Position numbers and translations under genes: made by a program
The notes under the pieces: generated by a model
What the model was told of the DNA's origin: nothing
What the model saw: only the letters and a program-made list of their open reading frames with translations
The model's database searches: none
NCBI RefSeq assembly: GCF_000685155.1
Contig: NZ_JMIY01000005.1
Location: 108,928 to 172,927 of the forward strand
Length of the DNA stretch: 64,000 nt
Source: Candidatus Methanoperedens nitratireducens
Lineage (GTDB): Archaea > Halobacteriota > Methanosarcinia > Methanosarcinales > Methanoperedenaceae
Direction: 5' to 3'
Part shown: positions 10,025 through 44,690 of the stretch, one piece after another
How positions within the stretch are numbered: position 1 is the first letter of the stretch
Layout of the letters: every line of letters begins with the position of its first letter

Positions 10025-10338
10025 TAGCTAATTTCTTCTCCCTGTTTTTTTCAATACTCTGTCATGATTTTAGTGATTTATTCAGTAAGTGTCCTCTTCA
10101 AATATAAATATAGAGGATTTCGAAAAACCCCTAATTTTGGTTCTTCCTTTATAAAGGGTTTATAAGCGAATCAATAAAAAAGTAGGTTAATCAAAATCCT
10201 CTATAATGTATCCTGAGAACCCGTCAAATAATTAGACAGGTATTAGTGGCAATTTTTTTATGAAGCCACAGAGTCTGCTATGAACGCGGTTCAGAGATAA
10301 CAATGAAAAAGACGATTAACAACGAACTCAAAACGAAC
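10025..10338. promoter_or_regulatory. kaiC upstream region with 12-bp inverted repeat and palindrome
   Basis: This 314-base gap has no gene. A perfect 12-bp inverted repeat, TATAGAGGATTT (10109-10120) and its complement (10194-10205), encloses 73 bases. Inside it is the 12-bp palindrome CCTTTATAAAGG (10146-10157). An A/T-rich TATA-like stretch lies near 10101-10112, about 80 bases before the kaiC start. These may be operator sites for kaiC. The distal end merges into the iteron-like repeat at 10311. Confidence 0.4.
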
Positions 10339-10349
10339 TTAAACGAACT
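10311..10349. repeat. Iteron-like ACGAACT repeat, single arm
   Basis: Three copies of ACGAACT spaced 10-11 bases apart. The 39-bp block is identical, in reverse orientation, to 44554-44592, 34 kb away. It overlaps the last codons and stop of the kinase gene ending at 10339, so part of that kinase's C-terminus (KFV and stop) is encoded by the repeat. It belongs to the family that frames the GxxExxY gene at 27.3-27.8 kb. Confidence 0.85.
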
Positions 10350-25869: not shown

Positions 25870-26130
25870 TTGAGCACGGATGACACGGGCGCGCCGAGCT
25901 AAGCTCATACTCGCCAGCAGGTGAAAATTCCGAAGATCTTGGAAGCCGACGTTATCTGTGTAACGGAAGGCAGCAATCACACCACCGATATTAAGCATCT
26001 CCAGTCTTGGAATATAGCAGAGAGCTATGCGACACGGCAAGGTGCTGTGAGTCCAACGGGGTCTAAGACCGTAGCATGGTATCAAACGGAGTTTATGGGA
26101 ACTCGGGAGACCCAGTATGCTCTCCCAAAA
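25870..26130 (+). ncRNA. Group II intron-like domain I fragment (tentative)
   Basis: The stretch from the GCCGAGCTAAGCTCATACTC region through GGTGCTGTGAGTCC, GTAGCATGGTATCA and GGGAACTCGGGAGACCC has the look of domain I of a group II intron. No reverse transcriptase, domain V hairpin or clear GUGYG boundary follows, so it would be a 5' fragment. Translation gives an open but odd frame, as structured intron RNA often does. The call rests on remembered sequence resemblance and needs a covariance-model search. Confidence 0.35.
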
Positions 26131-26505
26131 GGAGTAATCAATATCAAGCCTATGAACGGTAAGATATTGCAGATGGCATTCTGGGAGTCGGATCAGTTCG
26201 TAGTACTGTTGAAGCAGGGTAACTCCTGTATTCAGATTCCAGACCATGAGACGCTGCAGCATTTTGAAAAAATAAGACTGGGCAATGAAGGAATGGACGC
26301 AATAATGGAACTCTTCTGCATAAAAGTTGACTTAACAATGGAGGAAATATGGTTTGATGGTGGTTATAACAGCAATAAAAACATTGCATTATACCATCTG
26401 AGAAATATTAGTGAGGACATCAATAGTTACATGAAAAACAACCTTGGTCTCCAGACTCGTATGAACGTAAAAGGCATCAAGAGCTTATTTGACATAGGAG
26501 GGTGA
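26131..26505 (+). pseudogene. Possible transposase fragment
   Basis: The frame stays open for about 125 codons after the intron-like stretch. It contains WFDGGYNSNKNIALYHL, which resembles the DGGY-type segment around a catalytic Asp in DDE transposases, and ends LFDIGG and stop. No other DDE residues or flanking inverted repeats are clear. It has no start of its own. The identification is weak; the setting among broken mobile genes is the main support. Confidence 0.25.
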
Positions 26506-26671: not shown

Positions 26672-27007
26672 GAGGTACAGAAACAGAAACTCTTCTTTTT
26701 TTCTGATATATTGAGCGAGGCGCCAATAATCTATAGCGATAAAGTAAGGCTTGTTTTTGTTGATGGCTAAAATACGGATATAAGATACCCGGTTGAAGCT
26801 AAGTACTCGTTTCACTGGCAACTTAAAGATAGAATACTAAGAATAGATACAGCACCTCATCACCGCAATCTTTCAACGTATCCAAGACATATGCATATTG
26901 GAAAAGAAGAGCATGTAGCAGAGGATACGGTGACGAAAATCGATAGTACTATAGAGGAAAATATGAAATGCGTACCTCAGTTCGTGCGCGGGAAACTGGA
27001 TAAATAG
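26672..27007 (+). pseudogene. Broken DUF6516-type toxin-like gene
   Basis: One frame reads KVRLVFVDG, stop, then KYSFHWQLKDRILRIDTAPH with the H-rich continuation HRNLSTYPRHMHIGKEEH. This is the DUF6516 signature (DNAPHH...TFPHH-like), a family usually found as one half of toxin-antitoxin-like pairs. A TAA at 26768 interrupts the frame and no start is visible. The normal stop (TAG) is the last codon, and its bases are also the left target-site duplication of the element inserted immediately after, so the insertion hit the exact 3' end of this gene. Confidence 0.75.
27000..27007. repeat. Left 8-bp target-site duplication
   Basis: ATAAATAG directly precedes the left end of the inserted element and is repeated exactly at 28048-28055 after its right end. 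Confidence 0.8.
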
Positions 27008-27114
27008 CCATAGCGTCAAGTTAGTCTTGTAATTTTTTAAAATACCACCTTATTTTTTTATGAAAAAGGCTTAGGCTCCGCCCCAATATAGCCTCCTCCT
27101 CTAAGGCAAAAGGT

Positions 27115-27138
27115 TGTGTAGTGTATATACACTACACA
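27115..27138. promoter_or_regulatory. 24-bp perfect palindrome
   Basis: The sequence is perfectly self-complementary over 24 bases, centred on TATATA with arms TGTGTAGTG. It ends two bases before an ATG that opens a 26-codon frame (27140-27220). It could be an operator for a dimeric regulator or a cruciform/terminator structure. Confidence 0.6.
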
Positions 27139-27139
27139 C

Positions 27140-27220
27140 ATGAATGAACGTATACTTTATCTGGAAAATCAGCAAGGTGACAAAATAGATATACCGAAGT
27201 ATAACATGACTTTTAGATAA
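27140..27220 (+). CDS. 26-residue open frame beside palindrome (doubtful)
   Basis: Very short frame beginning MNERILYLENQQ and ending at TAA, with no ribosome binding site. It may be the surviving 5' end of a gene once controlled by the adjacent palindrome. Kept only because of that position; coding is not established. Confidence 0.2.
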   Translation: MNERILYLENQQGDKIDIPKYNMTFR

Positions 27221-27274
27221 ATATTTTTTCAATGTATTAAATTGGACAATCTTAACTGATAACAAAATCAACTG

Positions 27275-27310
27275 GAGTTCGTAACAGTTCGTATTAGTTC
27301 GTTGTTTTTA
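27275..27310. repeat. Left iteron-like inverted repeat of GxxExxY cassette
   Basis: Three AGTTCGT words spaced about 10-11 bases end in GTTCGTTGTTTTTA. It is the inverse of the array at 27732-27763, and the two frame the GxxExxY gene like terminal inverted repeats. Confidence 0.8.
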
Positions 27311-27330
27311 TTAATATATTTTTATTATTT

Positions 27331-27711
27331 TTAAATTAAATTTGGTATCCGTTCAATGTCCACTGTATTTCTTTCTCTACTAAAGTTAACTAAAACTCCA
27401 AGTTTAATCCCTGTCGCTTTCAGATAATTCAAAACTTGTGCTTTGTGTATGCTTGTTATTTCGTACACAGCCTTTATCTCAACGATTATTTTATCTACAA
27501 TATATAAATCTGCATAGTAGTCGCCGACGACATTTTTTTTATAAGTAACTTGAATCGGGAATTGTTGCTTGACTATGAAACCTCTATCTTCAAGTTCAAT
27601 TTTTAGAGCGTTTTCGTATACCTTTTCTAAGAATCCAAGACCAAGTTCAATTTTTATGGCTATACAGGCTGATTTTATGTCATAAAACTCTTGTTTATAT
27701 ATTAATTCCAT
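27331..27711 (-). CDS. GxxExxY family protein
   Basis: Protein of 126 residues with the family-naming motif GFLEKVY in LGLGFLEKVYENAL, followed by YYADLYIVDKIIVEIKAV, which carries the D...ExK residues of a PD-(D/E)XK nuclease-like fold. The family is widespread in environmental bacteria and archaea. Its biological role is unknown. I took the second of two adjacent start methionines (MELIYKQEFY); the first is equally possible. The gene lies between two inverted repeat arrays within a transposon-like element, so it is cargo or a part of the element's own biology. It has a lower G+C content than the kinase genes. Confidence 0.85.
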   Translation of the reverse strand: MELIYKQEFYDIKSACIAIKIELGLGFLEKVYENALKIELEDRGFIVKQQFPIQVTYKKNVVGDYYADLYIVDKIIVEIKAVYEITSIHKAQVLNYLKATGIKLGVLVNFSRERNTVDIERIPNLI

Positions 27712-27731
27712 CATATCCCTCTGTGCAAGAT

Positions 27732-27763
27732 AAACAACGAACTAAAACGAACTGAACGAACTC
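27732..27763. repeat. Right iteron-like inverted repeat of GxxExxY cassette
   Basis: Three ACGAACT words spaced 9-10 bases, beginning AACAACGAACT, mirror the left array at 27275. Same family as the copies at 10311 and 44512. Confidence 0.8.
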
Positions 27764-28047
27764 TTTTATCAGAAATTTCCAGTTCAGGCCAGTATTATTT
27801 CGTTTTCAATTGAAATCGAATGCTACAGACTTATATCTAATACAATATTAATTCTAAATCTTATTTAGTAATGCCAAGCAGAGTGAAAGTGTTTGATATT
27901 TGTTAAAATATCATAAAAGTTTTGGAGAAGACTGGTCCATCCTGCGAATTGATACCTGCTCTTCAATCCATTTTAGGGGTAGAAGCAAGTGTGGAAGGCA
28001 TTTATTGATGATTATTTATAAAATCCAAGCTAATCTTGACGCTATGG

Positions 28048-28055
28048 ATAAATAG
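28048..28055. repeat. Right 8-bp target-site duplication
   Basis: ATAAATAG directly follows the right inverted end and matches the left flank exactly. Confidence 0.8.
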
Positions 28056-28636: not shown

Positions 28637-28764
28637 CTCATCTCTAGGTTGGTATCATATAATAATTATATTATTCTATTTATTAAATATATAATTAAGC
28701 TACTTATTATTATCCAGCAGTTTTCCACTATGCTTATTAATATTCTATAATCTAAAAGCCTCTC

Positions 28765-44323: not shown

Positions 44324-44690
44324 TGAATAATGGATTTATTTAAATAAATAGATTTTGAAATCATGATAATTAGTATACTGATAAAATTATCGAGCCCATT
44401 CAATAATTCCAATTTTTCAAATATATCAAAAAGCTTTCCGTGCCTCAGCATCTGGTATGAGAAAGTTCAACTATATCGCATCTCAGACTCGGATGTGGTT
44501 CAGCTAATATAAACAACGAACTGGTACGAACTTGATACGAACTCGAGCTGATGAGTTCGTTTAAGTTCGTTTTGAGTTCGTTGTTAATCGTCTAATTATT
44601 GGATGGGTTCCTCAGTATTAGAAAAGCTATATAATTAAACACAGGAATTAGTGCTCTTAATAACCGGCTGCATTACGTTAAGAGAGGATT
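44324..44690. promoter_or_regulatory. Divergent promoter region of the cytochrome and LUD genes
   Basis: No gene in 367 bases. A 16-bp palindrome ATTTATTTAAATAAAT (44333-44348) lies just upstream of the cytochrome start and can serve as its TATA element. The middle holds the large iteron palindrome. GAGAGG just before 44691 is the binding site of the next gene. Confidence 0.5.
44512..44592. repeat. Iteron palindrome: two repeat arms tail to tail
   Basis: A left arm (44512-44544) with three ACGAACT words and a right arm (44553-44585) with three AGTTCGT words are inverted around an 8-base spacer, GAGCTGAT. Within arms the words are 10-11 bases apart, one helical turn. The right arm plus AATCGTC is identical over 39 bases to the single arm at 10311-10349. 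The arm order is the reverse of that around the GxxExxY gene, as if the ends of a cassette had been joined. Confidence 0.85.

Follow-up and report, generated by a model that had tools for sequence, protein, structure and literature searches.

Background

Mobile insertion cassettes (MICs) and transporter IS are elements derived from insertion sequences (IS) which carry a passenger gene, and the IS256/Mutator family of IS duplicates 8-9 bp of its target. In the REPIN/RAYT layout, a gene is accompanied by short inverted repeat modules which are also dispersed genome-wide, while Cas4 proteins contain an iron-sulphur region. These are the closest described systems to the locus presented here, a GxxExxY family gene flanked by short repeat arrays in a stretch of 64,000 nucleotides (the window) from the 3.2 Mb genome of the archaeon Candidatus Methanoperedens nitratireducens. 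No description of the carriage of this GxxExxY clade or of the array repeat was found in the open-licence PMC literature on GxxExxY, PDDEXK_3/PF13366 and Methanoperedens inverted repeats or insertion sequences. Our analysis suggests that the gene is probably the passenger of an IS-derived element, and that this element is tied to genus-wide iterons bound by a putative protein. The comparison with the systems above is taken up at the end.

Results

The GxxExxY gene lies in an element with IS-type ends

The features of the locus are collected in Table 1. An earlier note on this DNA had described positions 27275-27763 as an array-to-array cassette around a GxxExxY gene with a PD-(D/E)XK-type product, and both the framing and the enzyme type were upheld. 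There are six matches to AGTTCGTNNNAGTTCGT (at most one mismatch) in the window versus a mean of 0.00 in 100 window shuffles, giving a chance expectation of 0, and three of the six are the arrays framing the gene, while the family profiles and the invariant catalytic residues of the product agree with the proposed enzyme type. New with respect to the note are the outer pair of terminal inverted repeats (TIRs) and target site duplications (TSDs) at 27000-28055, the array sites at 10322 and 44516, and ~90 matches elsewhere in the genome.

Table 1. Features of the GxxExxY locus and other array sites in the window
Feature	Position	Strand	Basis or remark
Half array, dispersed element, without GxxExxY gene	10322-10349	-	Word pattern
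TSD, left copy ATAAATAG, 8 bp	27000-27007	.	Identical to 28048-28055
Left TIR CCATAGCGTCAAGTTAGTCTTG	27008-27029	+	Inverted pair; same end on transposase-encoding IS of G029
Left array	27276-27302	+	AGTTCGT-aac-AGTTCGT-att-AGTTCGT; 3 words, spacings 10,10
GxxExxY gene, intact, 127 aa, PD-(D/E)XK type	27331-27714	-	PF13366 and TIGR04256
Right array	27737-27762	- (plus reads ACGAACT)	ACGAACT-aaa-ACGAACT-ga-ACGAACT; spacings 10,9
Upstream motif AATGCCAAGCAGAGTGAAAGTGTT	27870-27893	-	Common to gene copies; also upstream of other genes
Transposase C-terminus remnant, 29 residues and stop	27919-28008	+	Alignment to L245 transposase; DNA match to L244 ORF end
Right TIR	28026-28047	-	Partner of CCATAGCGTCAAGTTAGTCTTG
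TSD, right copy ATAAATAG	28048-28055	.	Identical to left copy
Divergent array element, family A: 3 words each side of 10-bp core, without GxxExxY gene	44516-44581		

The TIRs bound an element of 1,040 bp (27008-28047) with an exact 8/8 duplication outside, and the arrays are located ~270-285 bp inside its ends. Between these ends there are only the GxxExxY gene and the 29-residue transposase remnant, with no intact transposase. The remnant aligned to the L245 transposase with a score of 72, against shuffles scoring at most 43 (0/2000 as high), and for the L244 transposase 1/2000 shuffles scored as high; a BLASTP search of the 29 residues against L244 gave no match, which counts against an IS-derived origin, and at the DNA level the right end of the element matches the 3' end of the L244 transposase ORF. 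With the element as query in 99 relatives, its ends were found at a distance of ~2.2 kb from each other in G029 and in G040, where they enclose transposase genes, the one in G040 being split into two ORFs. The match of the transposase to PF00872 is weak (23.2 bits, cut-off 21), and its 27.6 bits against the NF033543 IS256 equivalog are far below the cut-off of 150. In L244 and L245, which encode a transposase, an exact target duplication is absent, unlike in the derivatives with their 8 bp, and there are no paired array words, on which ground the arrays were rejected as sites for the outer IS transposase. The window genome yielded no copy with these ends that encodes a transposase, which counts against a supply in trans there. 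Since a C-terminal transposase remnant is retained and the ends are shared, the element would be an IS derivative in which the gene has replaced most of the transposase, and we consider it a probable non-autonomous element derived from a distant IS256/Mutator-like insertion sequence, the GxxExxY gene being its passenger.

The suggestion in the earlier note that the array-gene-array piece of 490 bp mobilises itself was sustained only with respect to the gene riding on a small mobile DNA unit. For the piece itself as this unit there was no support, as the TSDs sit at the outer TIRs: the insertion boundaries envisaged at the arrays were found at the outer repeats instead, and the transposase-encoding relatives have these outer ends without the paired array words.

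A second copy in the window genome (contig C1, 1,092 bp) has a broken gene, a nested repeat and an exact duplication ATAAACTG, and two more copies have lost one end, one of them together with part of the gene. In the closest relative, G024, homology ends at window position 28724, and hence there is no clean empty site for the window copy; of 11 array sites with flank in G024 stretches, L065 had a clean empty site and L049 was a shared element, the rest being mosaic or one-sided. G024 also has solo fragments of ~95 bp (L237, L243), consisting of one array and the pre-gene sequence of the window copy, without the gene. Left of the window element, a 194-aa ORF (25921-26505) has no Pfam or NCBIfam match. 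The upstream motif was rejected as a cassette end, because the same motif is also present upstream of other genes. The motif AATACTTTCACACYGCTTGGYA precedes many genes, among them a tRNA gene (L180, L186, L199, L200 and others, in Methanoperedens and in a single genome from a different family in the order), and resembles a widespread promoter element located upstream of genes.

Gene-bearing and gene-less elements in other genomes

In G005 the gene is contained in a 787-bp element whose end, CTATAGCATC, is related and whose 8-bp duplication, CGATACTC, is exact, and the gene-bearing element of G013 measures 834 bp. On the G013 contigs, four left ends and four right ends are present with flank, and the 8-mers next to them form pairs, which are exact for CTCCCTAC, CTCATATT and AAAAACCC, and match at 7/8 positions for GCATACAG/GCACACAG. 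Both contigs of the AAAAACCC pair contain gene sequence, while three interiors were not assembled, so that a gene inside each of these is presumed. At least 10 gene-less relatives in G013 combine stretches from either side of the gene, among them an element of 184 bp flanked by the exact duplication AACTAATC. At three G013 loci (L424, L429 and L436) the downstream array is fused straight to the upstream array, which is expected if recombination between direct arrays removed the gene. For the copies in G003 and G006 outer repeats were not detected, which counts against reading the gene as the passenger of an IS-derived element.

The mirror order, presented in the earlier note as the layout of the cassette, did not turn out to be fixed. 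The window genome and G003 have it (as >>> gene <<<), while G006 has >>> gene >>>, G013 has <<< gene with a divergent pair, and in G005 both arrays are on one side of the gene. Judging from G003, G005 and G013, the convergent framing in the window may represent a gene located between two modules, each of which keeps one half.

Architecture and distribution of the arrays

The usual form of the array is a divergent palindrome with three plus three 7-bp words, a 10-bp period and a 10-12-bp core, this core length being present in 129/154 distinct divergent elements. Among the matches listed for 80 named loci, divergent arrays outnumber convergent ones by 55 to 4, and the array is followed by TGTT in 128/152 and by TGCT in 22/152 cases, where the selecting pattern includes TGTT. 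The named loci with the three-word pattern are, among the matches listed, mostly from Candidatus Methanoperedens. In the 154 divergent elements 12/433 word pairs were mutated on both sides (13.9 expected), 0/10 single-change word pairs were compensatory, and the gaps were complementary in 12/279 cases. On the grounds of the absent compensation and the non-complementary gaps, hairpins were rejected, and as word mutations are never compensatory, the arrays resemble protein-binding iterons of duplex DNA. Sites which are read in double-stranded DNA at one word per helical turn would have these properties, and the arrays are probably a multi-site element bound by a putative protein.

The two-word pattern is present 103 times in the window genome (reversed control 0), and of 100 array places listed, 11 belong to the four gene-bearing copies. 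The paired word was found in all 31 genomes of the genus, in 34/34 of the family and in 40/99 relatives, with three control hits in all. Among viral contigs, the three-word pattern had no exact match. Array counts vary with assembly quality, as repeats break short-read contigs. The coupling of array and gene considered in the earlier note does not extend to the majority of array sites, which are without the gene, including those of genomes in which GxxExxY was not detected (G001, G002, G010, G012, G028 and G029), and G009 combines 77 array matches with a GxxExxY remnant only.

Within the window genome, the arrays are found inside unrelated repeat families. Family A accounts for 35 strict matches, family B is represented by 16 near-identical copies, and the gene-bearing element is a further carrier of arrays. 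Family B repeats are ~175 bp long (e.g. L075:1384-1560, L020) and end in TCAAGAAAGCCCCTGCGGGGGC and TATACGT. A target duplication was not seen for these copies, which are possibly IS200/IS605-like non-autonomous elements, and one is nested between the gene and the 3' array in the C1 copy (L033 near 2271-2425). In L043 (G000:C2:307482-312400), the core of a family A array element is interrupted by an insertion of ~1.9 kb, the ends of which are GGCCATTTGACCTC / GAGGTCATTTGGCC. In L017, L056 and at window 44380-44640, intergenic repeats are nested in one another: a bracket GAGCCCATCCAATAATT ... AATTATTGGATGGGTTC surrounds CACAGAG/CGCAAAG repeats and, in the window genome, also array elements, and this bracket has different content in G024.

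The 797 ORFs of 109 array loci contained no recurring neighbour gene as candidate binder, other than hsd genes and ORFs made of repeats. A link with type I restriction-modification, first suggested by loci selected for arrays, was rejected, as a sample which was not array-selected gave 3/30 hsdS loci and 3/30 control loci with arrays. Arrays are present in gaps between type I restriction-modification genes at L248, L274, L275, L329 and L334, and at L248 a toxin-antitoxin-like pair is also located at an array gap.

The GxxExxY protein and the array-associated clade

The 127-aa product matches PF13366 and TIGR04256 GxxExxY, both with E=6.5e-37, and the residues invariant in 21 homologues are GxGxxExxY, D69, E79-x-K81, Q93 and Y97. 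While sequence searches gave no convincing relative with a solved structure, the best structural match of the AlphaFold2 model (pLDDT 94.7) was SSO0001 (PDB 4ic1), which we take to be a Cas4 (Foldseek E=8e-6; Z 10.7, 101 residues, rmsd 3.7). The next matches were other PD-(D/E)XK enzymes with Z under 9, so the top row alone stands out, and families missing from this list are no evidence of absence. The protein is predicted to be a minimal Cas4/RecB-type PD-(D/E)XK nuclease. It consists of one compact nuclease domain with no extra DNA-binding domain in the model, which would make array recognition by the GxxExxY protein alone less likely. The dN/dS values of 0.04-0.21 between clade members indicate that the gene is under purifying selection.

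For GxxExxY genes in general, arrays were present within ~1.5 kb at 2/30 loci, compared with 3/30 radical SAM and 3/30 hsdS loci, and as a whole they are thus not nearer to arrays than other genes are. In a tree of 39 rows, all 11 rows with arrays within 300 bp are in a single clade (support 100/100), versus 0/28 of the other rows; the G006 and G013 loci were each entered twice, L154 was left out as it had no protein hit, and the L087 and L152 rows represent fragments and have long branches. The clade comprises nine distinct loci (two of which are fragments) from seven genomes, was found in two families of the order, and has arrays within 40 bp in 9/9 loci. Homology among the copies stops near the gene and arrays, and their neighbourhoods thus differ. 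The association with arrays is real for this clade, while the 28 other rows without arrays, like the majority of arrays without the gene, go against the self-mobilising unit suggested in the earlier note.

Discussion

Alternative explanations

The gene could be envisaged as the active partner of the arrays in a RAYT/REPIN-like manner, with the GxxExxY protein of the clade recognising the arrays, cutting or nicking there and spreading the elements, most of which would be gene-less derivatives. This would fit with the arrays at every clade member, with the purifying selection, with the two ends which gene-bearing and gene-less elements of G013 have in common, and with the higher number of array matches in genomes with the clade (median 36, n=5) than without (median 9, n=26; one-sided p=0.028), although p is 0.085 without the window genome and assembly quality confounds these counts. 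However, the six genomes with arrays and no detected GxxExxY, the remnant in the array-rich G009, the TSDs at the outer repeats rather than at the arrays, and the single compact nuclease domain all argue against it, and we consider this explanation unlikely. The proposal that the clade is the nuclease partner of the genus-wide iteron palindromes, combining a Cas4-type nuclease with duplex-read iterons and spread between hosts in IS-derived cassettes, is similarly improbable.

It is quite doubtful that the arrays are operators, and that a genus-wide regulator bound there acts on the gene (or on its antisense) in the same way as on other units. While the spacing of one word per turn and the conservation of sequence without pairing are consistent with operators, as are several copies in which an array immediately precedes the start codon, with a TATA-like TGTTTAT after the array, the promoter side of the G005 gene is without an array. 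Furthermore, array elements are commoner between convergent genes (23/64 intergenic cases vs 20% of intergenic length) and rarer between divergent genes (12/64 vs 25%), as counted with a simple longest-ORF caller, for which 12 of 96 elements had no neighbour on one side and 20 were inside called ORFs, mostly short. Framing by coincidence, through repeat insertions into intergenic DNA which are unrelated to the gene, was already disfavoured and is very improbable: arrays are common, as seen at the radical SAM and hsdS loci, but the contrast of 9/9 clade loci with 0/28 other rows and the different flanking sequences of clade loci in two families speak against it.

Proposed explanation and significance

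Taken as the passenger of an IS-derived element, the gene would be moved by a distant IS256/Mutator-like transposase, which acts in trans on the outer TIRs and duplicates 8 bp of the target, a step suggested by the ends, by the duplicated target sites and by the relatives which encode a transposase. The AGTTCGT arrays would not be the ends of the mobile unit, but a module dispersed through the genus, to which one GxxExxY clade may have become tied, carrying it on one or both sides. Where direct-repeat arrays flank the gene, recombination appears to delete it and give rise to gene-less elements, as suggested by the fused arrays in G013, while the nuclease itself would be kept by selection. It counts against this explanation that simple passenger status does not account for the universal link of array and gene in the clade.

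With these results the GxxExxY clade gains a natural history, as a probable passenger of IS-derived elements which is under purifying selection in two families of the order, and a partner sequence which is exact enough for testing. The strict architecture of the array makes it a distinctive genus-wide repeat in methane-oxidising archaea, and with this repeat as bait its putative binding protein could be isolated directly.

Comparison with known systems

The window element is like the MICs in its IS-type TIRs, its 8-bp TSD and a passenger which replaces most of the transposase, but differs from them in being archaeal, in its nuclease-like GxxExxY passenger and in AGTTCGT arrays which are also found in unrelated repeats genome-wide. 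With the IS256/Mutator family the derivatives have the 8-bp TSD in common, and the related transposases give weak matches to it, whereas the relationship is distant, below the IS256 equivalog cut-off, and the window copy has a transposase remnant only. As in REPIN/RAYT, a gene is accompanied by repeat modules which are also scattered across the genome; however, this gene matches PF13366 only and not the Y1 HUH transposase, and the array modules are not hairpins kept by compensation. With the Cas4 / lambda exonuclease type the protein has in common the predicted fold and the D, E-x-K and Q-xxx-Y motifs, while it differs from Cas4 in its length of only 127 aa, in having no iron-sulphur region and in that no cas neighbours were seen. 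The window protein is a full match to the GxxExxY / PDDEXK_3 family (TIGR04256, PF13366) with all invariant residues, and within this family the array clade is distinct, with arrays always present and a changed N-terminal segment.
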